This document shows, in pieces, positions 833 through 30,111 of a stretch of 42,998 bases of DNA (its first letter is position 1; each line of letters begins with the position of its first letter). The notes under the pieces were generated by a model. That model worked only from the letters and a program-made list of their open reading frames with translations. It searched no databases and was not told the origin of the DNA. Origin of the DNA: a virus; IMG/VR virus record IMGVR_UViG_3300047408_000117, positions 1-42,998 of that record; one strand, 5' to 3'. The position numbers and the translations under genes are program-made.

Positions 833-2443
833 ATGCTCGCTAAGCCACGGCGTTCGGCAAAGGGCAAAAAGCGCGCCGCCGACGTGATCGCGTTCATCGA
901 AAAGCTGACCGTTCCATCCGGCAAGGGCGAGGGCCAGCCGTTCAAGCTGGAACGCTGGCAGAAAGATTTTATCCGCGACATCTATGAGCCGCACACCGAG
1001 GACGGTCGGCGCGTGGTGCGGCGCGCGATCCTGTCGATGGCGCGAAAGAACGGTAAGACCGCGCTGATCGCGTGCATCGTGCTGGCGCATCTGATCGGGC
1101 CCGAGCGCATCAACAACGGCGAGATATATTCCGCCGCCAATGATCGCGATCAGGCGGCGATCATTTTCAAATTTGCGCGGCAAATCGTCGAGCGCGAGCC
1201 CGAGCTGTTGTTGCAAGTCGACATCGTGAAATCGACCAAGACCATGATCGGGCGATCAACCGGCTCGGTGTATCGCGCGGTTTCAGCCGAGGCCGGGACC
1301 AAGCACGGCTATCTCCCGAGCGTGGTGATTTATGACGAACTGGCGCAAGCCAAGAATCGCGACCTTTATGACGTGCTGGATACCTCGTTTGGTGCGCGCG
1401 CCGAGCCGCTGTTTATTACGATCTCGACGCAGAGCAACGATCCCGAGCATATCCTGTCGCAATTGATCGACGACGGGCTCGCCGGTCATGACCCGAGCAT
1501 CGTTTGCCATCTGCACGCCGCCGACGAGGATTGCGACCTTGGCGATCAGCGGCAATGGAAACAAGCCAACCCGGCGCTCGGCACGTTCCGCGACCGCGCC
1601 GATCTGGCGGCGGCCATCGGCAAGGCCAAGCGGATGCCCGCCGACGAGCCCAAGGTGCGAAACCTGTTGCTGAATCAGCGGGTGTCGCCCGCCTCGATCC
1701 TGATCAGCCGCGCCGAATGGATGGCGTGCGCTGGTAACGTATCGTTTCAACCCGGTGAGGATGTATTTCTTGCGCTCGACCTATCGAACACGCTCGACCT
1801 GTCGGCTTTGCTCATGGGCTCGGCGGATGATGTCGCGCGGGTCCAGCCGTTTTTCTGGAAGCCCGGCGAACAGCTCGCCGAGCAAAGCTTTCGAGATTTC
1901 GGGTCGGGCAACCATCGCTATGTCGAATGGAAAGACGCTGGACATATCGAGGTCACCGACGGGCGATCTATTGATCGGGCCGCCATCGCAAGGCGGATCG
2001 CCGAGCTAAGCGGGCGCTACAATGTGCGCGCGCTGGTTTATGACCGCTGGCGGATCGAGGACCTGTTGCGCGAGCTGGATCACATCGGGCTGGAGGCGTT
2101 CAAGGCCGAGCCCGAGCCCGACGACGGCAAGCCGATCAAAGCCATTCCGCGATCCGGATTGCGCTTGGTGCCGTGGGGCCAAGGCTTCAAGGACATGGCC
2201 CCGGCCATCGACGCGCTGGAGTCCGCCGTGATCGAGCGCAAGCTGATCCATCCGAATAACCCGTGCCTGAATTGGAACATGGCGAACGCCGTCGCGGTGA
2301 TGGACCCGGCGGGTGGCCGCAAGCTCGACAAGGACAAGAGCCGGTTCCGCATCGATGGTGCGGTCGCGCTGGCGATGTTGATGGGCTACCGCGCCCGCGC
2401 CCGGATGCGGCCCAAGGTCGATCTCGAAACCCTGATCGGGTGA
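833..2443 (+). CDS. terL: Terminase large subunit (ATPase/nuclease)
   Basis: 536-residue motor that translocates and cuts phage DNA at the portal. The ATPase domain shows a Walker A-like SMARKNGKTALIA (about residues 68-80) and a Walker B VVIYDE (about 164-169). A coupling-motif-like ISTQSND follows near residue 197. The C-terminal half carries a nuclease-like region beginning at VFLALDLSNTLDL, with DRW and DGAVALAM acidic motifs further on. This is the YmfN/HK97-type large terminase family with its usual 500-570 residue length. No truncation is seen. Confidence 0.92.
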   Translation: MLAKPRRSAKGKKRAADVIAFIEKLTVPSGKGEGQPFKLERWQKDFIRDIYEPHTEDGRRVVRRAILSMARKNGKTALIACIVLAHLIGPERINNGEIYSAANDRDQAAIIFKFARQIVEREPELLLQVDIVKSTKTMIGRSTGSVYRAVSAEAGTKHGYLPSVVIYDELAQAKNRDLYDVLDTSFGARAEPLFITISTQSNDPEHILSQLIDDGLAGHDPSIVCHLHAADEDCDLGDQRQWKQANPALGTFRDRADLAAAIGKAKRMPADEPKVRNLLLNQRVSPASILISRAEWMACAGNVSFQPGEDVFLALDLSNTLDLSALLMGSADDVARVQPFFWKPGEQLAEQSFRDFGSGNHRYVEWKDAGHIEVTDGRSIDRAAIARRIAELSGRYNVRALVYDRWRIEDLLRELDHIGLEAFKAEPEPDDGKPIKAIPRSGLRLVPWGQGFKDMAPAIDALESAVIERKLIHPNNPCLNWNMANAVAVMDPAGGRKLDKDKSRFRIDGAVALAMLMGYRARARMRPKVDLETLIG

Positions 2444-2449
2444 GCCGCA

Positions 2450-2890
2450 ATGAAAACGGTGACGCTGCGCGGCATGGTGAGCTGGTTCGGCGGCCCCGAG
2501 GATATGGGCGTGTCGCCGTCGGAAGGGCTGGCGTTCATCTATCATGTCGAAACCGCGCCGCATCTGTTTTTAGCGACGCAGCCCATCGGCACCACAGGGC
2601 TCGCGCGGCGGCTCAATCCGTCGGTGCCGTTCATCGCGTGCCGGTGGGATTATGATGTGCACTCGAAAGAGTTTTTGGCGAGCATGAAACACGTGGCGCT
2701 GGTCACCGCGCCCAAGACCGGGCGGCGGTTCCGCGCTTGGCCCGCCGATTGGGGGCCGCACGAAACCACGGGCCGCGTCGCCGATATCAGTTTCGGCTTG
2801 ATGGAATATCTCGGTATCGATACCGACGACGAGGTCGAGGTCGAGTTTCCCGCGCTGGTGCGGTGGCCGAAACACTCGCCGTCAGTCTAG
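2450..2890 (+). CDS. Conserved phage protein of unknown function
   Basis: 146 residues; it starts 6 bases after the terL stop, so it is probably cotranscribed with packaging genes. The C-terminal third reads TGRVADISFGLMEYLGIDTDD followed by an acidic-hydrophobic strand and a Pro-rich end. This pattern (RvaDiS.g.....LGi.tDd.V.V) is seen in phage and RlpA-like double-psi beta-barrel proteins, but I cannot assign an enzyme activity. No signal peptide or membrane segment is present. The gene shares its last 3 bases with a small convergent ORF. Confidence 0.6.
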   Translation: MKTVTLRGMVSWFGGPEDMGVSPSEGLAFIYHVETAPHLFLATQPIGTTGLARRLNPSVPFIACRWDYDVHSKEFLASMKHVALVTAPKTGRRFRAWPADWGPHETTGRVADISFGLMEYLGIDTDDEVEVEFPALVRWPKHSPSV

Positions 2891-2982
2891 GCAAAACCTA
2901 TTCGTCTTGAACCTGAGCCTTTGGCATCACCTTGCTTTGCCGGGCGGACGATCTTCACTTCCTTGTTTTGATATTTAGCCAT
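2887..2982 (-). CDS. 31-aa leftward small protein
   Basis: Small basic ORF beginning MAKYQNKEVKIVRPAKQGDA and ending at a TAG that overlaps the stop of the upstream rightward gene. It is preceded on the minus strand by a good TTGAGGAAA ribosome-binding site about 7 bases from the ATG. The sequence is like the start of a family of small phage proteins beginning with V.IVR.AKQGD, so this may be a truncated member. Support is the RBS and family-like start only. Confidence 0.4.
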   Translation of the reverse strand: MAKYQNKEVKIVRPAKQGDAKGSGSRRIGFA

Positions 2983-3081
2983 AGTGCGTTTCCTCAATCG
3001 GCTTGATTGCCGTGCCCGGGCATAACGCTCATGCAACCCCGATAGTTTCGTTGATGGTGCAACTCAAAAAGGAAACGCTCG

Positions 3082-3705
3082 ATGAAATATGTTCTCCCTG
3101 TTCTGGCTGCGCTGGCGCTGTTGGTTGTTCCGGCGCAAGCCGACGTGATTCTCGACCCGCATCTGAGCGGGACCGGCGACAATGTTATTTTCGATAGCGT
3201 CAGCGGCAACATCGCGGTCGGCCACCTCAACGGCCAGCACGTCGACGTTGTCGATTTCACCAACCTCGGCAATACGATTTTCAGCGGTGCGGCCAACGGC
3301 AACGATATCAAGATCACCAACACCAACGACCTCAAGGTCCAGGTGTTCGATCCGACGAATACCTTTGTGGTCGGGACCTTCACGCAAGTGTTTTCGTTGA
3401 AGGGCGACGGCCACGTGTTCCTGTCGGTGATCGCCACGGATGGCACGTTTAACTTTGACCTCGGCACCATCAGCCCAAGCGCGCAATCCGGGTTCACGCT
3501 GAGCGCCATCAACGGCGAGGTGATGACCTCGATGACGTTGCTCGATGTCGGCGGCACCATCACCGACTTTGAACACTATCGCATCGACGTGGCACCGCTG
3601 GCGGTGCCGGGACCCGTGGCCGGTGCTGGCATCCCGGGGCTGATCGCGGCGTGCGGAGTGATCGCGTTTGCCAAGCGACGGCGTCGCCAACCCGTGACGA
3701 GCTAG
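3082..3705 (+). CDS. Secreted protein with PEP-CTERM-like C-terminal anchor
   Basis: 207-residue exported protein. Residues 1-20 form a signal peptide (Lys-Tyr, an Ala/Leu-rich core, cleavage near PAQA-DV). The middle is beta-rich, Asp/Asn/Thr-rich and lacks Cys. The C-terminus has a three-part sorting tail: VPGPVAGAGIPGL, a hydrophobic stretch (IAACGVIAFA), then KRRRRQ. That resembles PEP-CTERM-like proteins common in Bradyrhizobium. A clear AAAAAGGAAA RBS precedes the ATG. It stands alone between packaging and capsid genes, followed by a strong hairpin and a convergent gene. This placement suggests a moron expressed in the lysogen, although a virion role is not excluded. Confidence 0.6.
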   Translation: MKYVLPVLAALALLVVPAQADVILDPHLSGTGDNVIFDSVSGNIAVGHLNGQHVDVVDFTNLGNTIFSGAANGNDIKITNTNDLKVQVFDPTNTFVVGTFTQVFSLKGDGHVFLSVIATDGTFNFDLGTISPSAQSGFTLSAINGEVMTSMTLLDVGGTITDFEHYRIDVAPLAVPGPVAGAGIPGLIAACGVIAFAKRRRRQPVTS

Positions 3706-3741
3706 ACCTACCTCCCGGGGCACAAAGCTCGTCGCCGTAGC

Positions 3742-3770
3742 GTGCGGGCCGTCCCCACGACGGCCCGCAC
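3742..3770. terminator. Perfect 11-bp hairpin after the secreted-protein gene
   Basis: GTGCGGGCCGT and ACGGCCCGCAC form a perfect 11-bp stem with a 7-base loop in the gap between two convergent genes. There is no T-run directly after the stem on the plus strand. It is therefore not a textbook intrinsic terminator, but it would block or stabilise transcripts from either side. Confidence 0.45.
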
Positions 3771-3780
3771 ACCGGATTTA

Positions 3781-3811
3781 CAATAACTAGTTTTTACTAG
3801 TTTTTGTTATT
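3781..3811. repeat. Tandem ACTAGTTTTT repeat inside a 7-bp inverted repeat
   Basis: Two direct copies of ACTAGTTTTT (3786-3805) are framed by CAATAAC and GTTATTG, which are inverted repeats. The block overlaps the 3' end and stop codon of the leftward gene at 3787-4188. It is A+T-rich against a G+C-rich background. It may act as a terminator or mark a former recombination junction. Confidence 0.4.
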
Positions 3812-4188
3812 GACTTGCGTTTGGTGGGAACGGCGCGGATTGCGGCGAGCGCGGCGCGCCCGGTCAACGGCATCTTGCGCCGCTCGTCAGCCTCGGCCTT
3901 TTTGCGCGCCGCTGTCATCCGCTCGGCGATCATCGGGTCGGCGCGGTCGAGGAACGACGGCACCTTAAGCGGATCGTCGGCACGGGTCGGCGTTACCGGC
4001 TCTTGCTTGGTGGGCACGGTGACGCTGACCGCTTTCGCTGGTGTTGACGGTAGCGGCGGCGGCGCTACGGACAGCCGCCGCCGTTGTTTTTCGAGCTTAG
4101 CAAGTTTGTTTGCGGCGATGATAAGCCGCCGCCGCCATCGCGCCATCGCGGCATCGATGTCGGTAAGCTTTTCGCTGTTGGTCTGCAT
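3787..4188 (-). CDS. Leftward basic hypothetical protein
   Basis: 133-residue, strongly charged protein without recognised domain. The N-terminal 40 residues are a basic helix (ARWRRRL...KLAKLEKQRRRL). A Pro/Thr-rich linker follows, then a second charged helix (AERMTAARKKAEADERRK). The start at 4188 is chosen because AAGGAGT lies 6-7 bases upstream; a longer in-frame start at 4296 lacks one. It is antisense to the surrounding late genes, consistent with a lysogenically expressed insertion. A nucleic-acid-binding role is possible from its composition only. Confidence 0.5.
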   Translation of the reverse strand: MQTNSEKLTDIDAAMARWRRRLIIAANKLAKLEKQRRRLSVAPPPLPSTPAKAVSVTVPTKQEPVTPTRADDPLKVPSFLDRADPMIAERMTAARKKAEADERRKMPLTGRAALAAIRAVPTKRKSITKTSKN

Positions 4189-4415
4189 CGCGTGACTCCT
4201 TGTCGTTCGCCGCGTGACCATCACGCGACAAAATAATTTTACGACACCTTGCTGCACACGTGCTGCGCGAACTCCGCGGCGTTGAAATTTCTTCAACGAT
4301 CACGTTTGCGATTTTCAAAAAGCTCAAACAAAAAAATTTGCATTCGTGCTTTTCACGGCACCGCTCGCGCACGCGCGCACAAGTTGAAAACAACCAGGCA
4401 CAACGGAGTGAAAAC
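4189..4415. promoter_or_regulatory. Divergent intergenic region with inverted repeats
   Basis: This 227-base region separates the leftward gene (start 4188) from the rightward capsid operon (start 4416). It contains CGCGTGA-cca-TCACGCG (4211-4227) followed by an A/T-rich run, and GTTGAA-atttc-TTCAAC (4281-4297). Both are perfect inverted repeats, and the region is more A+T-rich than its neighbours. It probably holds divergent promoters, but I cannot fix -35/-10 boxes with confidence. Confidence 0.4.
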
Positions 4416-4757
4416 ATGCCGCTGGCAATCATCGACGGCCCGACCATCGCGCGAGGCGAATCGCTTTCCGACGGCATCGATTGTTCGTCGGGTGAGATCG
4501 TGCGGATCACCGTGCCGCAAGAGTTTACCCAAGCGAACCTGACGTTTCAGGTTTCGACCGACGGCAATTTTTACAACGACCTGTTCGACGACGACGGCGA
4601 CGAAATCACCGTGGTCGCCGAACCGGACGCGGCGGTTTACATCACGCGGCATTGGGTCCGCGCCGTGGCGTTCCTCAAGCTGCGTTCGGGTTCGCGCGAT
4701 GCGCCGGTCGAGCAACGCGAGGATTGCAAATTTGCCATCGCGGTGTTGACGCCATGA
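4416..4757 (+). CDS. Conserved phage head-module protein
   Basis: 113 residues of predominantly beta pattern, starting MPLAIIDGPTIARGESLS after a CGGAG RBS. The pattern of an early hydrophobic strand, a tolerated FQVSTDGNFYNDLFDDDG turn and a terminal basic SGSRDAPVEQ segment is typical of small proteins encoded just before prohead proteases. A decoration or capsid-accessory role is inferred from position. Its stop overlaps the protease-capsid start by ATGA. Confidence 0.55.
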   Translation: MPLAIIDGPTIARGESLSDGIDCSSGEIVRITVPQEFTQANLTFQVSTDGNFYNDLFDDDGDEITVVAEPDAAVYITRHWVRAVAFLKLRSGSRDAPVEQREDCKFAIAVLTP

Positions 4758-6892
4758 AGCCCGCCGGGCTGGTCCGCAAGGCCGAGATGGTCGAGCCCGA
4801 GGACGATGAAAGCTATTACGATTTCATGTCGCGTTGCGTCGACGACGAGGGCAACGACGAGGATGCCTGTCAGCTCGCATGGGATGACAAGGCTGGCGAC
4901 GGCGCGGTGGTGCACAAGACCAGCCACGCCTCGAAAGCCGACGGGCTCGATTTTATTCTGAGCGACGAGACGCCGGATCGGTTCGGCGATGTGATCTCGG
5001 CGGATGGATGGGTGCTCGACAATTTCAAGAAAAACCCTATCGCGCTGTTCGGTCATAGCTCCAGTTTTCCAATCGGCAAATGGCAAGGGCTGCACGTCAA
5101 GGACGGCGCGCTGCGCGGCCATCTGCAAATTGCCCCGGCGGGCACCAGCGACCGCATCGACGAGATTCGCAAGCTGGTCGAGGCCGGGATATTGCGCGCG
5201 GTGTCGGTCGGCTTTGTGCCGATTGAAAAAAAGACCATCGACGCGCGCGCCGACGATTTTTTCGGCCCGTTCAAATACCTCAGACAAGAATTGGTCGAAA
5301 CCTCGCTGGTTTCGATTCCGGCCAACCCGAACGCCTTGGCTGTCGCCAAGTCGCTCAAGGTTTCCGACGACACGATCCGCATGGTGTTCGCCAAGCACGG
5401 CGACAACGGCACCGCGCGGGCGCGTTCGGCGGCTCATCGGCAAGCACGCCAAAACGTCACGACACCATCACAAGGCAAAGCCATGACGCTTGCACAACGC
5501 ATCAAGGATGCCGAACAACGCTTGCTCGAAAGCAAGGACAAGTTGTCGGCCCATCTGGAGAAATCCGACGACAGCAACGTGACCGAGGCCGATCTTGAGG
5601 CCCGGCAATCGATCAATAACGAAATCATTAACCGCGAGCGCACGCTCGATTCGCTCCGCGAATCCGAGAGGCACCTCGGCACCACCAGCGAGGACGGCGG
5701 GCGCACCGTGGTCACGAGGTCGTCGGTTCCGGCGGTGGCGAACGGCAGCACCGCGCTGACGCAGCCGCGCCCGTTTAGCGTGCCAGCGAAAAAGATGGCC
5801 CCGCTCGATTTCCTGGTGCGGGCCGGTGCCATTCAAATCCTGGCGCACCGCGACCGCAAGCCGCTCGACGATGTCCGCCGCGCCATCTATGGCGACGACG
5901 AGGCAACCCGGGCGGTGCTGGATTGGCAGACCAAGGCCGCCGCCGCAGTTGCCATGACCACGACGGTCGGATGGGCCGCCGAGCTGGTGCAACAGATCGT
6001 CGTCGACTTCATGTCGACGCTGACGCCGAAAAGCGTGTTTCCGCGCCTGTCGAGCGCGGGGCTGTCGCTTTCGTTCGGACGCAACGGCAAGATCATCATC
6101 CCGACGCGCTCGCGCACGCCAACCATCGCGGGCTCGTTCGTCGGTGAAGGTCTGCCGATCCCGGTGCGGCAAGGTGCGTTCACCTCGCAAACACTCACGC
6201 CGAAAAAGATGGGCGTGATCACCACATGGACTCGCGAGATCGACGAGCACAGCGTGCCCGCCATCGAAGGCTTGCTGCGCGATGCGATCCAAATGGATAC
6301 GGCAGTCTCGCTCGATGCCGTGTTGCTCGACGCCAACCCGGCGACGACGGTGCGCCCGCCCGGCATCCTGAACGCTGTTTCGGGGCTGACGCCAACCGCT
6401 GGCGGCGGCTTCAACGCGCTGGTCGGCGACATCAAACAGCTCACCAATGCGTTGTTGACCGGCACGCTCGGCAACATCCGCAGCCCGGTATGGTTGATGA
6501 ATCCGGCACAGGTCAACAGCATCGGCCTTGTCGCGGCCCCGGGCGCGGGCGTGTTCCCGTTCCGCGACGAGATCGGTCGCGGCACGCTTGGCGGCTGGCC
6601 GGTGATCGATTCCGGCACGGTGCCGATCAACACCGTGATCGTGGTCGACGCTGCCGATTTCGTCAGCGTATCCGGTGACGCGCCGCGCTTTGAGATCAGT
6701 GATCAAGCGACGCTGCACATGGAGGACACCACGCCGACCGACATCAGCACAGCGGGCACGCCCGCCGTGGTGGCGTTCCCGGCCAAGTCGATGTTCCAAA
6801 CCGACAGCATGGCGCTTCGCTTGGTCCTGCCGATCAATTGGTGTCTGCGCCGTACCGGCGTGGTCGCTTGGGTCGCTGGCGTTACGTGGTAG
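4754..6892 (+). CDS. Prohead protease-major capsid fusion polyprotein
   Basis: 712-residue single reading frame. Residues about 52-215 match the HK97 gp4/U35 prohead protease: LSDETPDRFGDV, the catalytic-type His in LFGHSSS (His101), the catalytic-type Ser in AVSVGF (Ser151) and ELVETSLVSIPANP. After a short linker, residues 244-712 form an HK97-fold major capsid protein with a coiled-coil delta-like region (about 244-330) and a shell domain (about 375-712). In most relatives these are two genes, so either proteolysis or an internal start must release the capsid. The start ATG overlaps the previous stop by 4 bases. No stop codon or frameshift separates the parts. Confidence 0.85.
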   Translation: MKPAGLVRKAEMVEPEDDESYYDFMSRCVDDEGNDEDACQLAWDDKAGDGAVVHKTSHASKADGLDFILSDETPDRFGDVISADGWVLDNFKKNPIALFGHSSSFPIGKWQGLHVKDGALRGHLQIAPAGTSDRIDEIRKLVEAGILRAVSVGFVPIEKKTIDARADDFFGPFKYLRQELVETSLVSIPANPNALAVAKSLKVSDDTIRMVFAKHGDNGTARARSAAHRQARQNVTTPSQGKAMTLAQRIKDAEQRLLESKDKLSAHLEKSDDSNVTEADLEARQSINNEIINRERTLDSLRESERHLGTTSEDGGRTVVTRSSVPAVANGSTALTQPRPFSVPAKKMAPLDFLVRAGAIQILAHRDRKPLDDVRRAIYGDDEATRAVLDWQTKAAAAVAMTTTVGWAAELVQQIVVDFMSTLTPKSVFPRLSSAGLSLSFGRNGKIIIPTRSRTPTIAGSFVGEGLPIPVRQGAFTSQTLTPKKMGVITTWTREIDEHSVPAIEGLLRDAIQMDTAVSLDAVLLDANPATTVRPPGILNAVSGLTPTAGGGFNALVGDIKQLTNALLTGTLGNIRSPVWLMNPAQVNSIGLVAAPGAGVFPFRDEIGRGTLGGWPVIDSGTVPINTVIVVDAADFVSVSGDAPRFEISDQATLHMEDTTPTDISTAGTPAVVAFPAKSMFQTDSMALRLVLPINWCLRRTGVVAWVAGVTW
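5483..6892 (+). other. Possible internal start for free major capsid protein
   Basis: Met244 of the fusion (ATG at 5483) starts MTLAQRIKDAEQRLLESKD, a normal beginning for an HK97-type capsid with its delta-domain coiled coil. An AAGG sequence lies about 8 bases upstream. Initiation here would give a 469-residue capsid precursor at higher copy number than the protease. Whether this start is used cannot be decided from sequence. Confidence 0.45.
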
Positions 6893-11733: not shown

Positions 11734-13254
11734 ATGCCGATCTCGTTCAACAACATTCCGCAAGGCTGGAAATTGCCGCTGATCTACATCGAGGTCGACC
11801 CGTCGCAAGCGGGCACGCCGACCTCGCAGAAATATGCCTTGCTGGTCGACTACAAGATCGCGAGTGGCTTGGCACCGCAGGACGTGCCGATAGCGTGCGG
11901 CTCGGTGGCCGACGCGCAAAGCTTGGCGGGGCTCGGCTCGCCGCTCGCCCGCATGTATGAGCGGTTTTTTCAGATCAACAAATCAACGCCCGTGCTGTTG
12001 CTGCCGATTGCCGAACCGGCGGCGGGCGTGGTCGCGACCGGCGCGATCACCATCACGGCGGGGCCAACACAATCCGGCACGCTGTCGCTTTATATTGCCG
12101 GGCAATCGGTCGACGTGAATGTCGCCGCTGGCGACACGCCGACCATCGTCGCAACCTCGATCAAGGCGGTGTGCGACACGCTGCCGTTGCCGGTGACGGC
12201 CACGGTGGCCGCTGGCGTGGTCACGCTGACCTCGAAATGGAAGGGCCAGACCGCCAACGACATCCGCGTCGACCTTAACGTGTTGGGCCCGAACGGCGGC
12301 GAGGTCACGCCCATCGGGCTGACGCTGACCCTGCCAGCCAACGGCACCTTGGCCGGGGGCACCGGCACGCCGGTTTGGACAAACGCCATCGCGGCGTTGG
12401 GCGACGAGCCTTATGAATATGTGGCGCTCGGGATGAACGACACCGGATCGCTGACCGCTTGGGAAACCGAATACGGGTTTTCCGATTCCGGTCGGTGGGG
12501 CTGGCTGCGCGAGTCCTACGGTCACGTCATGACGGCAAAGCGCGACACCTATGCCAACCTGTTTAGCTATGGCCCGACCAACAATTCGGGCGTGATGTCG
12601 ATCATCGCGTTTGAGCCGTCGTCACCGTCGCCGATCTATGAGTGGATCGCGGCTTATGCCGCCGAGGCCGCCAAGGCGCTATCGATTGACCCGGCCCGCC
12701 CGTTGCAAACCCTGACGCTCGACGGCGTGATGCCCGCGCCGAAAAATTTGCGCTTTAACAAGACGCAAACCAACGCGCTCGCTGGCATCGGGCTCGCGGT
12801 GCAGATGACCAACGCATCGGGTGTGCCGACCATCGCCCGCGAACAAACGACCTATCAGAAAAACACGCTCGGCCAAGCCGACAACGCCTATGAATTGATG
12901 ACGACGCTGGCAACGCTGGCCGAGCTGTTCCGGCGGATGCGGCAAGCCATCACCAACAAATATCCGCGCCACAAGCTCGCCAACAACGGCACGCGGTTCG
13001 GGCCCGGTCAGGCCATCGTCACGCCGAACATCATCAAGGCCGAGCTGGTCGCCGAGTATCGTCAGGACGAATATGACGGCCTCGTCGAGAACGGCGACGC
13101 TTTCAAAAAATTCCTGATCGTCGAGCGCGACGACACCGATCCGAACCGGGTCAATGTCCTGTATCCGCCCGATGTCGTGAATCAGCTCCGCATGTTTGCG
13201 GTGCTGGCGCAATTCCGTTTGCAGTACCCGGTGTTTGAAAACGTAGCGGCGTAG
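11734..13254 (+). CDS. Contractile tail sheath protein (Mu gpL-like)
   Basis: 506 residues, the expected length for the family. The beginning ISFNNIPQGWKLPLIYIEVDPSQAG is the classic Mu gpL start (IP..WR.PL.Y.EvD.SqA). A beta-rich insertion domain occupies about residues 95-210. The conserved C-terminal sheath core ends with TANIIKAELVAEYRQDEYDGLVEN-type and VNVLYPPDVVNQLRMFAVLAQFRLQ segments. A CGGAG RBS is 7 bases before the ATG. Presence of a sheath shows that the phage is a myovirus. Confidence 0.92.
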   Translation: MPISFNNIPQGWKLPLIYIEVDPSQAGTPTSQKYALLVDYKIASGLAPQDVPIACGSVADAQSLAGLGSPLARMYERFFQINKSTPVLLLPIAEPAAGVVATGAITITAGPTQSGTLSLYIAGQSVDVNVAAGDTPTIVATSIKAVCDTLPLPVTATVAAGVVTLTSKWKGQTANDIRVDLNVLGPNGGEVTPIGLTLTLPANGTLAGGTGTPVWTNAIAALGDEPYEYVALGMNDTGSLTAWETEYGFSDSGRWGWLRESYGHVMTAKRDTYANLFSYGPTNNSGVMSIIAFEPSSPSPIYEWIAAYAAEAAKALSIDPARPLQTLTLDGVMPAPKNLRFNKTQTNALAGIGLAVQMTNASGVPTIAREQTTYQKNTLGQADNAYELMTTLATLAELFRRMRQAITNKYPRHKLANNGTRFGPGQAIVTPNIIKAELVAEYRQDEYDGLVENGDAFKKFLIVERDDTDPNRVNVLYPPDVVNQLRMFAVLAQFRLQYPVFENVAA

Positions 13255-13301
13255 TCGCGACGTTCGCCTAACTCAACCTTTCATCATCAGGAGTCTTGAA
13301 C

Positions 13302-13673
13302 ATGGGCAACAGGTTTGCCGGTGTGGCGTATTGGTCTGCCGACGGTGCACAGCTCGCCGTTCGCGGAAATCTAGAGGTGATGCCGTCACGCTATGAGCGC
13401 ACCGGCATCGCCGGGCAGGATCGCGTGCACGGCTATTCCGAGCTGCCGGTGGTGCCCTACATCGCGGGCGATGTCTCGACCCTGGAAGGCACCAGCGTCG
13501 AGGACATCGACGCGATGACCGATACCACCATCACCGTCGAGGCCGCCAACGGCACGGTGTGGGTTTTGCGCAACGCATGGCGCGCCGAACGCTCGACCGT
13601 CAATCTGCGCGACGGCCAGTTTCACGTTCGCTTTGAGGGTATGAGCCTCGACGAGCTGGCGGCGGCGGCATAA
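13302..13673 (+). CDS. Tail tube protein (Mu gpM-like)
   Basis: 123 residues starting MGNRFAGVAYWSADG, with YERTGIAGQDRVHGYSE and a C-terminal GQFHVRFEGMS strand, typical of Mu gpM tail tubes. The ATG at 13302 is preferred over the in-frame TTG at 13296 because AGGAG lies 8 bases upstream of it. It follows the sheath by 47 bases and its stop overlaps the chaperone gene. Confidence 0.85.
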   Translation: MGNRFAGVAYWSADGAQLAVRGNLEVMPSRYERTGIAGQDRVHGYSELPVVPYIAGDVSTLEGTSVEDIDAMTDTTITVEAANGTVWVLRNAWRAERSTVNLRDGQFHVRFEGMSLDELAAAA

Positions 13674-14041
13674 TGGCAATCGCCGACATCAAGGCCCGCC
13701 AAGCGGCGGCCCCGCCGCTACCGGAGGAAAAGCCCAGCGCGCCATTGCCAGCCTATACGCTGGAATTGATGCGCCCGGTCGAGGCACACGGTCAACAGGT
13801 TGCAACGCTGGTGTTTCGCGAGCCGACGGGTCGCGATCTGTTGAACATCGGCAACCCGGTGATCTTTGATCCGATCTCGGACCCGCCAAAGATCATCCAC
13901 GATGAAAAGCGGATGAATGCGATGATGTCGGCGCTCGCTGGCGTGCCGCCGTCGTCGATCATGGCAATGTCGCCGCGCGATTGGATCACCGCCGCGTGGG
14001 GGCTGACGCCTTTTTTCGTGCCGGTGCCGGGCAAGATTTGA
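13673..14041 (+). CDS. Tail assembly chaperone, short form (Mu gp41-like)
   Basis: 122 residues with the chaperone-type pattern YTLELMRPVEAHGQQVATL...GRDLL and a segment DEKRMNAMMSALAGVPPSSI...MSPRDW, as in Mu gp41 and P2 gpE relatives. It binds and escorts the tape measure during tail assembly. The start overlaps the tube stop by one base. The zero-frame stop comes just after a slippery TTTTTTC, so this is the shorter of two predicted products. Confidence 0.8.
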   Translation: MAIADIKARQAAAPPLPEEKPSAPLPAYTLELMRPVEAHGQQVATLVFREPTGRDLLNIGNPVIFDPISDPPKIIHDEKRMNAMMSALAGVPPSSIMAMSPRDWITAAWGLTPFFVPVPGKI

Positions 14042-14160
14042 TCGGCGATTGCATCGGCCTCGCGTTGAATTTTCATTGCAGCCCGCTTGAGTTTGCCGAC
14101 CTCCCGATGTCGACCGTGCATGAGCTGATCCGCGAGCTGGTCGCGTTCAAGGACAAGTGA
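13673..14160 (+). CDS. Tail assembly chaperone, -1 frameshift long form
   Basis: Slippage by -1 at 14011-14017 joins the first 115 residues to a 47-residue extension in the overlapping frame, giving about 162 residues before TGA at 14158-14160. The extension (IGDCIGLALNFHCSPLEFAD then MSTVHELIRELVAF) looks like a real helical protein segment of the gp42/E' type. It has no start codon of its own near its beginning. It ends 3 bases before the first tape-measure gene, where the long form is found in P2, lambda and Mu-like phages. Confidence 0.7.
14011..14017 (+). promoter_or_regulatory. Programmed -1 frameshift heptamer TTTTTTC
   Basis: In zero frame the codons are CCT TTT TTC GTG, so the heptamer T TTT TTC fits X XXY YYZ. 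After slipping, the -1 frame stays open for 47 codons to the edge of the next gene. The site lies within the last tenth of the chaperone frame, as in other tailed phages. I did not find an obvious downstream pseudoknot. Confidence 0.7.
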
Positions 14161-14163
14161 CCG

Positions 14164-16014
14164 ATGGCCGATCAAGAGGAAGCGGTCAAGATCGTCATCG
14201 AGGTTGTCGATAAGTTTTCCAAGCCGCTCGTCGATCTCAGAAAGGACCTCGGCAACCTCGCCGACAAGGGCGGCGACGGTGCGGTAAGGACCGCAACCAG
14301 TTTCACCGTGCTGCGCGAGTCGATCCATACCGTGTCGCGCTCGGTCACCTCGACGCTGATGCCGAGCCTCAAGGTATTGGGGCTCGGCTTTGCCGGTGTG
14401 GCCGGGACGCTGGCGACGTTTGTCGCGGGCCTCAAAAATCTCGGCGGCGGCATTGCCGAGCTGACTCGCTTAAGCACCGAGACAAGGCTCGGCATCGACA
14501 AGATGCGGGAGCTGGAGTCGGTTGGCCGCCGGGTCGGCATCAGCTCGGAACAGATGCGCTCGGGCTTTCGCGGCTTCGCCGAGGAAATGGACAAGCTACG
14601 CATGGGCGTCGGCGGGGCCGATGGGCTGCAAGCGTTTTTCTCGCAACACGGCATCGGTTGGGCTGGCCGCGAATTGATCAGCATTAAGGATGTCAACAAA
14701 CAACTCGATTACGCTTTGGAATTGGTCGACCGCATCGACGATCCGCGCCAAAAACGCTTGGTGCTGGAACGGCTGCAATTGCCGTCGAATCTCGCACAGG
14801 TGCCCCGGGCCGAACGGCAACGCGCCATCGAGGAATATCGCAAGGCCGTCGGCCCGCTGAATAAGGAAACCAAGGAAGCGTCGCTGCGCTTCGCGGAAGC
14901 GATGCTTAAGCTTGGGACAGCTTGGGATGTGTTCACCAAGCGGCTCGCCGAAAATGGCGGGCTCGACGCGATGTCGAACTTGCTCGAAAAGATGGCGACC
15001 AACGCCACGTCGTTTGCCGATACGATCAGCACGATTGCTGCCGGTCTTAGGTTTTTCTTTGGTGGCAACGCGCCCAAGCCCGGCGAGGCATCCGGCGGCA
15101 TCACGCGGCAAAGCGCGCCGGGCGGCAGCAAGGAAGAAACCGCAAGGCTGCTCAAGACCAGCACCAGCGAGGGCGTGGTCGACGCCTTCAAAAAGATGGC
15201 GCTCGACATGGGCGGCGGCGATGGTGCCGGGGGCAACGCTTTCGGCGGCGCATCGGTGATCCGGGCATCGCTCGGCGGCGGCGGTGGCGGTTATCCAGGG
15301 CGGAATAAAACCGCTGATGACTCTGTGCCCGCGTCGGTCCCGCCAAACATTGGTGGCGGCAAGGTCGGCGGCAACATGGGCACCATGCGCGGCGTCGACC
15401 CGAGGCTGGTCGAGCTTGCGACAGCGGGCGCAGAATATTTGCCGGAAGGCTACACGCTGCGCCCGACATCCGGCGTCCGCACCAGGACAAACAATTATAG
15501 CTTGCATCCGAGCGGCAAGGCGTCGGATTGGCAAATATACGGGCCCGACGGCAAACCGATCCCGAACCGTGGAGATGATCGAACCGGCCTTTATACGCTA
15601 TGGGCTCGCGGTGCTTATACCGAGGCGTTGAAACGCTACGGCCCCGAGGTCGCGAACCGCATGGGATGGGGCGGTGCGTTTGGCACGTCGCCCGGCAGCA
15701 ATGTGCCCGACATCATGCACCTCGATTTTGGCGGTCATCGCGGCAGGTTGCGGCCAGGAAACATCCTTAGAAATTTGGGGCCGTTGTCCAAGGAAAAACA
15801 AGACGAGGTCGAGCGAAAGAGGACTCAACCGCCACCGCCGCGCGTTCGGTTGCACGACAACAACGACGAGCCCGGCCGGGTCGAGGGCGCGGCCAAGGTG
15901 CGGGTCGACCTCAACGGATTCCCGCGCGGCACCAAGACGACGGCAACGGCGGGCGGCGTGTTTTCCGATGTCGAGTTGCATCGCGGCCATATGCCGCAAA
16001 CCGAAAGCGCCTGA
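14164..16014 (+). CDS. Tape measure protein 1 with M15-like peptidase domain
   Basis: 616 residues. About 1-285 form the tape-measure body, including a hydrophobic segment (LKVLGLGFAGVAGTLATFVA, near 69-88) and long helices. Gly-rich linkers follow at about 300-400. Residues about 410-530 carry a peptidase M15/VanY-type zinc site: SLHPSGKASD (His448, Asp455; consensus SxHxxGxAxD) and MHLD (His519, Asp521). Such a domain would cut peptidoglycan cross-links during DNA entry. A short C-terminal motif (VEGAAKVRVDLNGFPRG) recurs in the next gene. The next gene is a paralogue with a different enzyme domain. Confidence 0.85.
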   Translation: MADQEEAVKIVIEVVDKFSKPLVDLRKDLGNLADKGGDGAVRTATSFTVLRESIHTVSRSVTSTLMPSLKVLGLGFAGVAGTLATFVAGLKNLGGGIAELTRLSTETRLGIDKMRELESVGRRVGISSEQMRSGFRGFAEEMDKLRMGVGGADGLQAFFSQHGIGWAGRELISIKDVNKQLDYALELVDRIDDPRQKRLVLERLQLPSNLAQVPRAERQRAIEEYRKAVGPLNKETKEASLRFAEAMLKLGTAWDVFTKRLAENGGLDAMSNLLEKMATNATSFADTISTIAAGLRFFFGGNAPKPGEASGGITRQSAPGGSKEETARLLKTSTSEGVVDAFKKMALDMGGGDGAGGNAFGGASVIRASLGGGGGGYPGRNKTADDSVPASVPPNIGGGKVGGNMGTMRGVDPRLVELATAGAEYLPEGYTLRPTSGVRTRTNNYSLHPSGKASDWQIYGPDGKPIPNRGDDRTGLYTLWARGAYTEALKRYGPEVANRMGWGGAFGTSPGSNVPDIMHLDFGGHRGRLRPGNILRNLGPLSKEKQDEVERKRTQPPPPRVRLHDNNDEPGRVEGAAKVRVDLNGFPRGTKTTATAGGVFSDVELHRGHMPQTESA

Positions 16015-16017
16015 CCG

Positions 16018-18084
16018 ATGGCCGATCAAGATGACGCGACCAAGATCGTCATCGAGATCGTCGACAAGTTTTCCAAGCCGCTGACCGCGCTCAGAAAGGA
16101 ATTAGAGGGGCTTAGCAGCAAGGGCGGCGACGGCGCAAACAAAACCGCCAAGGGTTTCGAGACGTTGCGGCAATCGATTCATAGTGTGGCGTCGACCGTC
16201 ACCTCGACGCTGATGCCGAGCTTGAAGGTATTGGGGCTCGGCTTTGCTGGCGTGGCCGGGACACTGGCGACGTTTGTCGCGGGGCTCAAGAGCCTCGGCG
16301 GCAGCATCAACGAGCTGACCCGGCTCGGCACCGAAACCAAGATCAGCATCGACAAGATGCGCGAGCTGGAATCGGTTGGCCGCCGCGTCGGCATCACCGC
16401 CGAACAGATGCGGGCGGGCTTCCGGGGCTTCTCGGAGGAAATGGACAAGCTCCGGATCGGAACCGGCGATCTGCAAAAGTTTTTTGGAACGCACGGCATT
16501 AGTTGGCTCGGCACCAATTTGAGGGGCATCAAGGACATCAACAAACAGCTCGACTACACGCTTGAAACCATCGACCGGATGACCGACCCGCGCCAAAAGC
16601 GGCTGGTGCTTGAGCGGCTGCAATTGCCAGCAAACCTCGCACAGATACCGAGGGCCGAGCGCGAGCGGGCTATCGAGGAATATCGAAAGACCGTCGGACC
16701 GCTCGACAAGGCGACCAAGGACTCGGCGCTGCGCTTCGACGAGGCCATGACTAACATGGCACTGGCTTGGGAAAAGTTTATCAATCAACTGGCAAAAAAG
16801 GGCGGCCTCGACGATTTTACCAAGTTGCTCGATCTGGCGTCGGGCAGCGCGGGCAAGATCGCCGACGAGGTGAGCAAGGCGGCGGTCGATTTCAAAAGTA
16901 TTTATGCCGACCTCGTTAAGATAACGGATTTACTAAAAAGCCTCAAACCCGGCGGCGGTATCCCGGGCATCCCGGGCAGCTCTGGCAAGGACCCGGGCTA
17001 TAAAGATTGGGACAAGAAAAGTTGGTGGGAACGCTTGTGGCCGCAATGGGATAAGTTGAGGCCCGGGCCGACGAGCTTGCCGGGCGGTGGCGGCGGCGAG
17101 GAATCCAAAAAGCTCATCAAGGAAGGCACCAGCGAGGGCGTGGTCGACGCCTTCAAAAAGATGGCGCTCGACATGGGCGGCGACAGCGCAGCCGGTGGCG
17201 GCAACACGTTCGGCGGTGCATCGGTGATCCGCACATCGCTCGGCGGTGGCGGTGGCGGTGGCGGTGGCGGCGGTGGTGGCGGTGGCGGCGGTGGTCGGCG
17301 CGGTGGTGGCGGCGGCGGTGGCGATCCGGCCTCGCCGGATAGCGATGCCTCGGATACGCCCGCCGTGCGCAGCCTTGCGATGGATCGGGCGCGCTTCGCC
17401 AAGGAATTAGCAACCAATCCGGCGCTGCGCGAAAAGGTGCTTGGCATTGCGGCGGGCGAAAACAAGGACCCGACGGCGGCGACCTCGGTCATTGAAACCA
17501 TGATGAATCGCGCTTCGCAGCGCGGCACCACACTGGAACAAGCGGCCCGCTTAACCCGCGAGCCCGGCGGCTATTATGCGGGCTACGATCCTGGCTCGCT
17601 GCGCCGCCCGGAAATCCGCAAGCGCATGGAGGATGCACTAAAGCGCGCGCTCGGCGGCTCAAACGCCAGCGATTATGCCACCGACAACTCGTCGGGTGGG
17701 CTGGCGGAAAGAGAAAAGCGCAGCGGCACGTTTCGTTTTCATAAGGGCTATGGCGGCGAAAGTTTCTTTTCGCCCGGCACCAGCGGGCGCGGGGCCGCTG
17801 GCCGCGAACGCTATTTGCGTTGGCGGAAAAATTTACAGGAAACCGACATTCCGTTGCCGCGCGCGCGCCCGCCCGAGGCCGACCGGCCCGAGGTGCCGCG
17901 CACCGAGTTTAGATATGCCGCGAACAAGTCGAACCAATCCACACGGGTCGAGGGCGACGCCACGGTGCGGATCGATCTTGCCGGGCTGTCGCGCGGCATC
18001 GCCAGAACACCGGGCGGCGGCCTCTTTTCCGACGTGCCAGTGCACGGTGGCAATACCGCCCCGGTCGCCAGCGAGAACGCTTAA
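16018..18084 (+). CDS. Tape measure protein 2 with lysozyme/SleB-like domain
   Basis: 688 residues. Residues 1-270 closely match tape measure 1, including a 20+-residue identical hydrophobic stretch. About 409-435 is an almost pure polyglycine linker. About 455-608 is a different, probably hydrolytic domain: LGIAAGENKDPTAATSVIET followed by MMNRA, with Glu481 as a likely catalytic acid. The (E...)(MMNRA) pattern resembles lysozyme-like and SleB-type cell-wall hydrolases. The linker phrase TSEGVVDAFKKMALDMGG and the C-terminal VEGDATVRIDLAGLSRG are shared with the first copy. It begins 3 bases after copy 1 stops. Confidence 0.82.
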   Translation: MADQDDATKIVIEIVDKFSKPLTALRKELEGLSSKGGDGANKTAKGFETLRQSIHSVASTVTSTLMPSLKVLGLGFAGVAGTLATFVAGLKSLGGSINELTRLGTETKISIDKMRELESVGRRVGITAEQMRAGFRGFSEEMDKLRIGTGDLQKFFGTHGISWLGTNLRGIKDINKQLDYTLETIDRMTDPRQKRLVLERLQLPANLAQIPRAERERAIEEYRKTVGPLDKATKDSALRFDEAMTNMALAWEKFINQLAKKGGLDDFTKLLDLASGSAGKIADEVSKAAVDFKSIYADLVKITDLLKSLKPGGGIPGIPGSSGKDPGYKDWDKKSWWERLWPQWDKLRPGPTSLPGGGGGEESKKLIKEGTSEGVVDAFKKMALDMGGDSAAGGGNTFGGASVIRTSLGGGGGGGGGGGGGGGGGGRRGGGGGGGDPASPDSDASDTPAVRSLAMDRARFAKELATNPALREKVLGIAAGENKDPTAATSVIETMMNRASQRGTTLEQAARLTREPGGYYAGYDPGSLRRPEIRKRMEDALKRALGGSNASDYATDNSSGGLAEREKRSGTFRFHKGYGGESFFSPGTSGRGAAGRERYLRWRKNLQETDIPLPRARPPEADRPEVPRTEFRYAANKSNQSTRVEGDATVRIDLAGLSRGIARTPGGGLFSDVPVHGGNTAPVASENA

Positions 18085-18639
18085 ATGGCAACACCGCTTT
18101 GGCGCGCGATGCTGGTGCCCGCGATGTTTCGCGGTGCGCCGTTTCATGTCGACGCCAATGCCCGGTCATCGGGCCGCCGCATCGTGCTGCATGAGTTTCC
18201 CAAGCGCGACGTGCCTTATGCCGAGGACATGGGCCGCAAGGCGCGTTCGTTTCCGGTGACCGGCTATGTGATCGGGCCGAGCTATGTGATCCAGCGCGAA
18301 TTGTTGGAGGTGGCGCTTGAGGCGTCGGGCCCCGGGCTGTTGATCCTGCCGACCTTGCTGCAACGCGATTCGATCTTGGTGCAAGTGCGCGACTACACCG
18401 TGCGCGAAACCCGCCAAGCTGGCGGCATGGCCGAATTTGATATGCAATTTGTCGAGGCCGGGGAAGCGGGCTTCTCGATCAACATCGACAGCCAAGGCGC
18501 GACCGAGACCGCCGCCGACAACGCTGAGACGCAAGCCGTTAATACCTCAAACGGTGAATTGGGCGACAACGCCAATCCTGGCGGCAAGGTTGAGGTCGGC
18601 CAGCCCACGATGACCGACGACCAAGGCAACCCGATATGA
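18085..18639 (+). CDS. DNA circulation protein, N-terminal part (Mu gpN-like)
   Basis: 184 residues. MFRGAPFHVDANARSSGRR, then VLHEFPKRDVPYAEDMGRKAR and VTGYVIGPSY match the N-terminal DNA_circ domain of Mu gpN (fRG.PF.v....GRR...HEyP.rd.PyaEDlGr). It is a tail/baseplate protein that also protects injected DNA ends in Mu. The ATG follows the tape measure stop directly. The frame stops soon after this domain, and the remainder of gpN is encoded by the next ORF. Confidence 0.78.
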   Translation: MATPLWRAMLVPAMFRGAPFHVDANARSSGRRIVLHEFPKRDVPYAEDMGRKARSFPVTGYVIGPSYVIQRELLEVALEASGPGLLILPTLLQRDSILVQVRDYTVRETRQAGGMAEFDMQFVEAGEAGFSINIDSQGATETAADNAETQAVNTSNGELGDNANPGGKVEVGQPTMTDDQGNPI

Positions 18640-19307
18640 GGGCCGACGCACGCGAGGAAGCGACGCGGCTGGTGGTCGCGACGGTCAAGGACCTGATGAA
18701 CACCATCGCCGTCGACGCCGGGCGGCCCGGCTCGCTAGTGCGGCTGGCCGCTGGCGACCTGATCGCCGACGCCGAGCTGTTGATCGAAAACGCGGCCATC
18801 GCCGCGCCGCTCGCCAACCTGTTCAACTTGGCGCGGCTGGCGGGCGCTACGGTCGACCAATTCGATGTGGTGCGTCGGCACGCGGTCGCCGTTGTCGTCA
18901 GCTATAATGCGGCGCTGTCGGTGCAAAACGGCGTGATCCGCTTTGCTCTGGTGCAATGCGCGCGCGTGCTTGCGGCGACCACGATGACGAGCCGCACCGA
19001 GGTCGACCGCTATCTTGACCGCATGAATGCAGCATTTAATCAGGCCGAAACTTTTGCGGGCAACACTCACGATCAAGCATCCTACCGCTCGATCATCGCG
19101 CTGCACGCGGCGGTGACGTTCGACCTGACCACGCGGGCGCGGCCATTGCCGCAAATCGTGGTTTACAATTTCGCGCGGCCCAAGCCCGCGTTGTGGATTG
19201 CGCAGCGGCTCTATGCCGATGCCGCGCGGTGCGGCGAGCTGATCGACGAGAATGAGCCGGTGCATCCCGCGTTCATGCAAATGCCCGTTCGCGCGCTGTC
19301 GCAATGA
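18636..19307 (+). CDS. DNA circulation protein, C-terminal part (Mu gpN-like)
   Basis: 223 residues, overlapping the previous gene by ATGA. The C-terminal half matches the end of gpN: YRSIIALHAAVTFDLTTRAR, then LPQIVVYNFARPKPALWIAQRLY with AARCGELIDENEPVHPAFM. The two parts together (407 residues) are close to a single gpN (about 490). The clean ATGA coupling suggests a functional two-protein split rather than a recent frameshift. Confidence 0.7.
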   Translation: MRADAREEATRLVVATVKDLMNTIAVDAGRPGSLVRLAAGDLIADAELLIENAAIAAPLANLFNLARLAGATVDQFDVVRRHAVAVVVSYNAALSVQNGVIRFALVQCARVLAATTMTSRTEVDRYLDRMNAAFNQAETFAGNTHDQASYRSIIALHAAVTFDLTTRARPLPQIVVYNFARPKPALWIAQRLYADAARCGELIDENEPVHPAFMQMPVRALSQ

Positions 19308-19310
19308 ACC

Positions 19311-20444
19311 ATGCCAAACCCGCAAGAAATCTGCATCGTTCAAGCTGGCGGCACAATTTACAAATTTTGGAAAGAGGTCGAGGTAACCCGCACCGCCTCC
19401 GACATCGTGTCGCGGGCGACCTTGGTGGTGGCCGAGATCGGCGACCTCAACATGGGCTGGAAATCGATCCGGTTGCCGCCGGGCGCGCCGGTCAAGATCA
19501 TGCTGGCGGGCGAGCTGGCATTGACCGGCGCGGTGACGGTGCGACAGGTCAGCTATGACGGCAATTCTCATAACGTGCGGTTCATTTGCCAATCGAACAC
19601 CGCCGCGCTGGCCAAAAGCTCGCTGGTGCTGCCGCCGGGTCAATTCAAAAACCAAACCCTGGAAAAGTTAGCAAACGCCGCCACTAAAAAATATGGCATC
19701 GCGTTTTCGCTCAAGGGGATGCCGGAAGGCGCGCAAAAGGTTTTCGAGCGCGTCAGTCTGCATTGGGGCGAAAGCCCGTTTCAGTTCATCTTGCGGCTGG
19801 CGCAGATGCGCAACATTCACCTGCTCGATAACGCGATGGGCAACCTGATCGGCATCCGGGGCGGCGGCCAACAGATTGCCGATCTGCAAGAGGGCCGCAA
19901 CATCCTGCAAGCCGAGCTGGTCTGGTCGCAGGACAACGCCGCCGACATCATCAAGGTCGACGGCGATCAGCACGGCACCAACGCACATTGGGGCGACAAG
20001 GCGCGGGCGCAATCCGCCGAGGCGAAGAATCCCAACTATGCGGGCAAGATACCATCGCCGCTGTTGGCGGTGATGCCGCAGCCCGGCGACGTTAAAGACG
20101 CGCAGATGTTCGCCAACCATTCGGTCGACCTCAACGCCGCCACCATATTCACCGCCAACATCACGGTGCACGGCTGGCAGCGTCAGGGCGGCGGGCTGTG
20201 GCTCAACGAGGTCGGCAACCTGATCAACCTCTATTCGCCGATGTTGTTGCCACAGGATCGCGCCAAGCTCGGTATTCAAAGCGCGACCTGTCGGCAGAGC
20301 GATGCCACCGGCACCACGACGACGCTGGAGCTGGTGTTGCCGGATCGGCTCGGTGGCCGTGACCAGATCAGCGTCGGCCCCAACGCGACGCCCGAGGCCG
20401 CACCATCGACGGCGGAACCAGCGCAACCGAAAGAGGAACCATAG
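19311..20444 (+). CDS. Baseplate hub protein (Mu gp44/gpP-like)
   Basis: 377 residues of the late-control-D/gp27-like hub that links tube to baseplate. Features include YKFWKEVEVTRTASDIVSRATL, a pair of hub beta domains, QFKNQTLEKLANAATKKYGI, and FERVSLHWGESPFQFILRLAQ. DNAMGNLIGI and a late HGWQRQGGGLW...VNLYSPML-type segment complete the gp44 pattern. A short Pro-rich tail follows. It begins 4 bases after the gpN C-terminal part. Confidence 0.85.
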   Translation: MPNPQEICIVQAGGTIYKFWKEVEVTRTASDIVSRATLVVAEIGDLNMGWKSIRLPPGAPVKIMLAGELALTGAVTVRQVSYDGNSHNVRFICQSNTAALAKSSLVLPPGQFKNQTLEKLANAATKKYGIAFSLKGMPEGAQKVFERVSLHWGESPFQFILRLAQMRNIHLLDNAMGNLIGIRGGGQQIADLQEGRNILQAELVWSQDNAADIIKVDGDQHGTNAHWGDKARAQSAEAKNPNYAGKIPSPLLAVMPQPGDVKDAQMFANHSVDLNAATIFTANITVHGWQRQGGGLWLNEVGNLINLYSPMLLPQDRAKLGIQSATCRQSDATGTTTTLELVLPDRLGGRDQISVGPNATPEAAPSTAEPAQPKEEP

Positions 20445-27572: not shown

Positions 27573-27856
27573 TGACCGCCGCGCGGTCGTGGTTTCGCGA
27601 CAACCAGACCTTGGTTTATTTTCTGGTGGGGCAAGCCGTTGCCATTGGTGCAGCCGTGCTGAGCGTTACCGCCTACATGGTGAGGCTTGAAACGCGGGTG
27701 AACACGCTGGAGGTGCGCGGTTCGCCACACCTCAACGTCATCGACGGCCGCCTGACCGTGCTGGAGAGTAAAACCACGGAAAACAAGCGCAGCATCGACC
27801 GCATTGTCGATGTGATGACCAAAGAGCTGCACGTTGCGCCAGCGAGGGACCGATGA
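27572..27856 (+). CDS. One-TM coiled-coil protein upstream of endolysin
   Basis: 94 residues. One membrane span (about residues 14-38: LVYFLVGQAVAIGAAVLSVTA) is followed by a coiled coil (about 38-85) with a cytoplasmic N-terminal tail. Its position directly before the amidase, with ATGA coupling, fits a holin/XhlA-like or inner-membrane spanin-like lysis protein. The lack of a partner spanin leaves the exact role open. Confidence 0.6.
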   Translation: MTAARSWFRDNQTLVYFLVGQAVAIGAAVLSVTAYMVRLETRVNTLEVRGSPHLNVIDGRLTVLESKTTENKRSIDRIVDVMTKELHVAPARDR

Positions 27857-28386
27857 CATACCGTCGCGTTGTCATATCGTCGGGTCACGGCAAACACGTG
27901 CGCGGCGCGTCGGGCGTGTTCGACGAGGTCGACGAGGCCCGCCGCGTGGTCGAGCATTTGGCCGACGAGCTGTCGTTGCGCGAGGTCGAGGTCGGGGTGT
28001 TTCACGACGACACCAGCCACGATCAGAAAACCAATCTGCACACCATCGTCGACGCGCACAACGACAGCGAGCGCGATCTCGACGTGTCGGTGCATTTCAA
28101 TGCGTTCGACGGCAAGGCACACGGCGTCGAGGTCTGCCATGTGACGCAACACGACCTCGCCGCCAAGGTGTCGGCGGCCATCGCCGGATGCGGGTTCGCG
28201 GATCGCGGGCCAAAGGAACGCACCGAGTTATATTTTCTGAATCACACCGACGCGCCCGCGATTCTGATCGAGGTTTGCTTTTGCGACAACGCCGCCGACG
28301 CCGCAACCTATCGGGAAAAGTTTCACGCGATCTGCGTTGCCATTGCCGACGTGTTGGGCGGCAAGCCCGCCGAGCTAATCGCCTAG
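27853..28386 (+). CDS. Endolysin, N-acetylmuramoyl-L-alanine amidase (Amidase_3)
   Basis: 177 residues. Cleaves the amide bond between muramic acid and the stem peptide. The Amidase_3 zinc/catalytic set is visible: His12 (SSGHG), Glu25 or Glu28 (GVFDEVDE), His81 (SVHFNA) and Glu140 (LIEVCFCDN). No signal peptide is present, so a holin-type partner would release it. Starts with an ATGA overlap and GAGGG RBS. It is the last rightward late gene; its 3' end overlaps the convergent gene by 12 bases. Confidence 0.9.
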   Translation: MTYRRVVISSGHGKHVRGASGVFDEVDEARRVVEHLADELSLREVEVGVFHDDTSHDQKTNLHTIVDAHNDSERDLDVSVHFNAFDGKAHGVEVCHVTQHDLAAKVSAAIAGCGFADRGPKERTELYFLNHTDAPAILIEVCFCDNAADAATYREKFHAICVAIADVLGGKPAELIA

Positions 28387-29619: not shown

Positions 29620-30111
29620 TTAAGGGGCCTTACACGACTCCTTTAAAACCGCGATGGCTTTGCGGGTTTCCTTCACCTCAAAAACAAATTCGCGCCGTGA
29701 CGCCGGTAGCGTAATGCGAATGGTTGATTGGCTGTCCGCAAACCAAGCAAGGTCAGCTTTAGTTATTTTTGTTGCAAGGCCGCCAGCGTTCCCGGTTGAC
29801 GCATTGAAGGTGTGAGGGTTTTTGCCATCAACACTGATCATGAGAGTGTCTATTTTTATTTTATTGGGCCCATAAAGCTCCGCTTGATATTCACCAGCGT
29901 CACAGGACAGTTGAAAGCTGACCGCCCATACGCCGTTGGTATCGATAGACGTTGAAATATTATATCCCCGAGCCGGTGGTGGGGCCACATCGACATAGAT
30001 GCGCTCGTTCAACTCCCAACTACCGAAACCCGTACCGCTGGCGGCGACAGATGGGAATGCGGGCCCTGCCAACAGGACAAGGACCGCCGCGATCTTTTTT
30101 AAAGCGTTCAT
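29620..30111 (-). CDS. Secreted protein coupled to integrase
   Basis: 163 residues. A signal peptide is clear: NALKKIAAVLVLLAGPAFPSVAA, cleaved about residue 24. The mature part is beta-rich with two Cys (SCDAGEYQA and ESC near the end) that could form a disulfide. The ATG at 30111 overlaps the integrase stop (TAATG). It is followed by a dedicated leftward terminator. Expression with the integrase suggests a prophage-encoded envelope or periplasmic function such as exclusion or host modification. I recognise no family. Confidence 0.6.
   Translation of the reverse strand: MNALKKIAAVLVLLAGPAFPSVAASGTGFGSWELNERIYVDVAPPPARGYNISTSIDTNGVWAVSFQLSCDAGEYQAELYGPNKIKIDTLMISVDGKNPHTFNASTGNAGGLATKITKADLAWFADSQSTIRITLPASRREFVFEVKETRKAIAVLKESCKAP

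Follow-up and report, generated by a model that had tools for sequence, protein, structure and literature searches.

Two tandem tape-measure genes, each with its own putative wall-cutting domain, were found in the tail module of the virus record analyzed here (the window, i.e., the whole stretch of DNA, 42,998 bases). A tape-measure protein occupies the inside of the phage tail and normally determines how long the tail is. By profile matches, alignment, and gene order, the encoded tape-measure proteins (TMP1 and TMP2) are tandem paralogues behind one frameshifting chaperone. The reading that accounts best for this arrangement, and one that we consider probable, is that tandem duplication of a TMP gene gave a mixed tail core in which the wall-cutting enzymes are partitioned between two proteins. 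A stricter form would be an obligate hetero-oligomeric tape measure, in which paralogous rulers occur at a fixed ratio per tail and carry complementary enzymes, with cassettes exchanged under selection for one peptide-acting and one glycan-acting domain; this form we offer tentatively, as nearly an even call.

Architecture of the tandem TMP pair

The two genes lie after the sheath (positions 11734-13254), the tube (13296-13673), and the tail assembly chaperone and before the hub (19311-20444) and a homologue of Mu gpN. The zero-frame chaperone product (13673..14041, + strand) matched Phage_TAC_7 (PF10109; E = 1.1e-10), and a slippery heptamer, TTTTTTC (14011-14017), opens into a -1 frame extension (14011..14159, +) whose TGA stop (14157-14159) lies 4 bases upstream of the TMP1 ATG. 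The same slippery-site layout was found in relatives, where the -1 extension is open as well, and the heptamer is a probable programmed -1 frameshift signal. TMP1 (616 amino acids; 14164..16014, +) and TMP2 (688 amino acids; 16018..18084, +), which starts 3 bases past the TMP1 stop, both matched phrog_2276, the tail length tape measure family (E = 2.1e-10 and 1.5e-10, respectively).

BLASTP aligned the two proteins over residues 1-402 at an E value of 2e-140. The shared N-terminal tape-measure domain (TMP1 residues 1-294, 14164..15045, +; TMP2, 16018..16899, +) is 68% identical at the protein level and 73% identical at the nucleotide level, and within one segment, VTSTLMPSLKVLGLGFAGVAGTLATFVAGLK, the two proteins match without interruption over 31 residues. 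Identity is 75% over the linker segment, within which TSEGVVDAFKKMALDMGG is 100% alike in the two proteins (TMP1 residues 334-351, 15163..15216, +; TMP2 residues 371-388, 17128..17181, +, followed by a poly-glycine hinge), and falls to 36% over the C-terminal tails, which begin with VEGAAKVRVDLNGFPRG in TMP1 (residues 572-616; 15877..16011, +) and with RVEGDATVRIDLAG in TMP2 (17944..18081, +). Between linker and tail, the two proteins are unrelated. Both genes also have the same start context, TGACCGATGGCCGA, in which the TGA is the stop of the chaperone -1 extension before TMP1 and the stop of TMP1 itself before TMP2. A preliminary description of this DNA had proposed two tandem TMP paralogues with about 270 shared N-terminal residues, an identical stretch of more than 20 residues, one start context, a common linker, and a common C-terminal motif; the open reading frames lie exactly where it had placed them, and every one of these shared features was recovered. 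TMP2 differs in carrying about 35 extra residues ahead of the linker. The long poly-glycine stretch between the TMP2 linker and insert (about 17242-17335) varies in length among relatives.

The same description had called the phage Mu-like. The tail module is indeed Mu/SfV-like, but the genome also holds an integrase (30111-31430; phrog_1, E = 9.8e-44) and a phage-encoded endolysin separate from the TMPs (27853-28386), and "Mu-like" is therefore a label that, as judged from gene content, fits the tail module alone. Terminase genes are present, and no transposase was seen in the part of the open reading frames that was scanned. The gpN/DNA-circularization homologue occupies two overlapping open reading frames (18085-18639 and 18636-19307); every near relative that was checked shows this split, as does the single-TMP group, while SfII has an undivided gene. 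No match to either TMP was found in 50,697 phage records or, with two to six short patterns per scan (weak evidence of absence), in bacterial genomes.

The two inserts

The insert of TMP1 (residues 409-541; 15388..15786, +) is a predicted M15-type zinc peptidase, as had been suggested. This placement was made by profile comparison and not by a Pfam cut-off: a profile built from five relatives matched the T5-endolysin-type M15 family by hhalign with a probability of 93.2 and an E value of 2.8e-7, and the Pfam M15 model gave no match to TMP1 of the window. His448, Asp455, and His519, the residues named beforehand, stand at the expected positions and, together with Asp516, are in register with the motifs of the T5 endolysin family (His-x6-Asp...His, with an acidic residue three positions ahead of the final His); all four are invariant in 5 relatives. 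One relative, L029, matched PF13539 (Peptidase_M15_4) below the cut-off (E = 0.0027), and weak PDB matches of the domain included M15 enzymes and hedgehog-domain entries. The hedgehog domain shares the M15 fold. The same M15-like domain also occurs in another virus contig (L015, 4726-12369), within an open frame of 2,548 amino acids.

The insert of TMP2 (residues 446-621; 17353..17880, +) had been described as lysozyme/SleB-like with a probable catalytic Glu481. The glutamate is present at that position and is invariant in 15 relatives, but the SleB assignment failed every test of family and fold: a search of Pfam, including PF07486, gave no relevant match, hhalign against a profile built from eight phage hydrolases of the SleB type gave an E value of 0.89, and Foldseek comparison of a low-confidence model with the PDB and viral models gave no useful match. 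Homology to any known hydrolase was thus undetectable by the Pfam, hhalign, and Foldseek tests. We regard this insert as a putative glycan hydrolase, mainly because Phage_lysozyme2 occupies the same slot in two relatives (L007 and L010) and also from the invariant Glu481.

Insert swapping among paired TMPs of relatives

IMG/VR was searched with the TMP proteins, with an N-domain profile, and with insert profiles; searching by N-domain took no account of the inserts, and the insert searches fixed only one partner of the two. A tandem pair was also present in 12 contig lineages (L005, L006, L007, L009, L010, L016, L024, L057, L060, L062, L064, and L065), some of which are close to one another. 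In the near clade, gene 1 carries an L,D-transpeptidase-like (LDT-like) insert in every member except the window, where the insert is of the M15 type, and gene 2 carries the Glu481 type in the window, L005, L006, L009, and L016 and Phage_lysozyme2 in L007 and L010. PF18013 was matched above the cut-off by the gene-2 inserts of L007 (E = 1.9e-20), L010 (E = 2.1e-17), and L025 (E = 4.2e-20) and by the gene-1 insert of L024 (E = 9e-20); in L024 and L057 the order is reversed, with Phage_lysozyme2 in gene 1. In a more distant group (L060, L062, L064, and L065), gene 1 has the Glu481 type and gene 2 has a Cys/His domain that, from its motif, looks like a cysteine peptidase. The LDT-like and Cys/His-type inserts were classed by motif plus very weak family matches; for the LDT-like insert, a His and a Gly-Cys are invariant in 15 sequences, the best Pfam matches were YkuD (E = 0.024) and Tlde1 (E = 0.03), and hhalign against LdtB was negative.

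The inserts thus swap among relatives, in keeping with the earlier suggestion of interchangeable enzymes. In no pair, among the window and the 12 lineages, do both genes carry inserts of the same class. Each pair joins a putative peptide-acting domain (M15, LDT-like, or Cys/His) to a glycan-acting domain, known-family or putative (Phage_lysozyme2 or the Glu481 type). The chance of such complementary pairing was estimated at 0.0015 to 0.003 for 11 to 12 random pairs, a figure for orientation only, given that the lineages are nonindependent and some class labels are inferred.

These pairs bear on the possibility that one TMP or the other is used per virion, so that two kinds of particle would exist, each with its own enzyme. 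The two proteins could be interchangeable, since they share the N-domain, the chaperone, and the tail motif. However, just 3 bases separate the genes, which appear to form one operon in which no switch was seen, and differing inserts have been kept in every pair despite swaps and a reversal of order, which points to joint use. Joint use is also indicated by other phages in which both kinds of insert lie within one chain: among single long TMPs, L029 has an M15 and a Glu481-type insert, L045 has a Glu481-type and an LDT-like insert, and L056 has a lysozyme-like and an LDT-like insert. We consider alternative tails improbable, and pair conservation favors a mixed core over them.

The nearest single-TMP relatives (L042, L044, L048, and L050) have the LDT-like domain only, so two enzymes per tail would not be universal. 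LDT-like domains were also seen at the start of separate proteins in L053-L055 (about 3911-5491), followed in L053 and L054 by an endolysin- or transglycosylase-like region. L052 possibly holds a further tandem TMP pair (2-1684 and 1688-4972), the first with a domain of unknown type and the second with SLT-like and LDT-like domains.

Age and maintenance of the duplication

High local similarity and tandem order could also stem from a duplication that was recent or neutral, or from faulty assembly, with one copy dispensable. Several results speak against this, and we hold it to be very improbable. The window genes are 78 to 87% identical to the same-slot genes of near relatives and 66 to 70% identical to those of the other slot, which indicates that the duplication is older than these phages. 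The arrangement recurs in many independent metagenome contigs and so is not an assembly artifact. Selection, named in the preliminary description as a point on which the pair might fail, appears purifying in both genes, with dN/dS values well below 1 (0.14 to 0.28 for orthologous N-domains and about 0.1 for the gene-2 insert), and no internal stop was found in any TMP copy read.

The history of the N-domains and that of the tails are not the same. In the C-tail tree, gene-1 and gene-2 tails fall on opposite sides, L024 included (support, 96/92). In the N-domain trees, the L024 and L057 copies stand apart from the near clade with no grouping by slot. In patches of the N-domain (residues 136-210 in L010 and residues 61-90 in the window), the two copies within a genome resemble each other more than orthologues do, a pattern that gene conversion would produce. 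We read these patterns as one duplication with N-domains homogenized later; two duplications with tail exchange are a possible alternative.

A further possibility is that only one paralogue is the ruler and the other is a passenger hydrolase, packed into the phage tail, whose N-domain and C-terminal tail are retained for targeting. One TMP is enough for SfII, and the segment of about 35 residues ahead of the TMP2 linker makes the rulers unequal in length, a difference that also counts against a mixed core. Within the near clade, the start-to-linker distance is nearly constant per slot (332 to 337 and 367 to 372 residues), which we count in favor of the mixed core. Against a passenger role, the N-domains of the two copies show much the same degree of conservation and comparable constraint, and patches look homogenized between copies, as would be expected of two proteins with a common structural function. 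We therefore regard a passenger hydrolase as unlikely, although less so than alternative tails.

Proposed role of the paired TMPs

For the mixed core that we favor, the following scheme is proposed. A tape-measure gene, originally present once in a contractile tail module of the SfV/Mu type, would have been duplicated in tandem. Both copies would have kept the linker, the C-terminal anchoring tail, and the N-terminal part that acts as ruler and is recognized by the chaperone, and each would carry its own peptidoglycan-acting domain, which in TMP1 is an M15-type peptidase and in TMP2 probably a glycan hydrolase. One frameshifting chaperone would serve both proteins, which would share the tail lumen as a mixed bundle, e.g., 3+3 or a mixed trimer. 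Upon tail contraction, both enzymes would reach the periplasm, where one would cleave the stem peptides and its partner the glycan strands, allowing the tube to pass. The diffocin TMP is a coiled-coil homotrimer with its N-end at the collar and its C-end on the spike (PMC10996793), an arrangement that would place a domain near the TMP C-end at the tail tip. Glycan cleavage by TMP2, the presence of both TMPs in one virion, their stoichiometry, and the delivery mechanism are steps that we infer from sequence.

Tape measures in the cited papers are single-gene homo-oligomers, and for TMPs other than that of diffocin, trimers or hexamers have been reported (PMC10996793). A conserved pair with swapping enzymes would, if true, mean that the tail lumen can hold two rulers, would make TMP stoichiometry testable via two distinguishable subunits, and would imply that selection favors the pairing of a peptide-acting with a glycan-acting enzyme at the tail tip. 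The gene-2 insert type and others would be unstudied hydrolase candidates.

Comparison with known systems

Wall-cutting domains borne on TMPs are already known, from mycobacteriophage TM4 (PMC1796659), from the TMP transglycosylases of enterococcal phages (PMC10194240), and from the CHAP domain of phiCbK gp95 (PMC3556154); what we judge to be new here is the tandem TMP pair with swapping inserts. No earlier description of a second, duplicated, or tandem tape measure was found in the open literature searched. The M15 domain of T5 lys, an L-alanyl-D-glutamate peptidase, aligns with the TMP1 insert at His-x6-Asp and Asp-x2-His, but in T5 it is a free endolysin, whereas here it lies inside a tape-measure protein. 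The M15-like domain of L029 is 41 to 45% identical to TMPs of Rhizobium phages P11VFA, vB_RleS_L338C, and RHph_I4, whose genomes are about 109 kb. The tail modules of SfV and SfII have the same order of sheath, tube, chaperone, TMP, gpN, and hub, with a sheath that is 43% identical; SfII, however, has a single TMP of similar length (611 amino acids) and one gpN, whereas the window has two TMPs and a split gpN. Diffocin provides the general architecture expected for a TMP core, although as a homo-oligomer rather than the hetero-oligomer predicted here. In TM4, the enterococcal phages, and phiCbK, the TMP-borne wall-cutting domain is likewise thought to aid the tail through peptidoglycan, but there is one TMP gene per phage, in contrast to the two paralogues found here, each with its own insert and with inserts that swap between slots.
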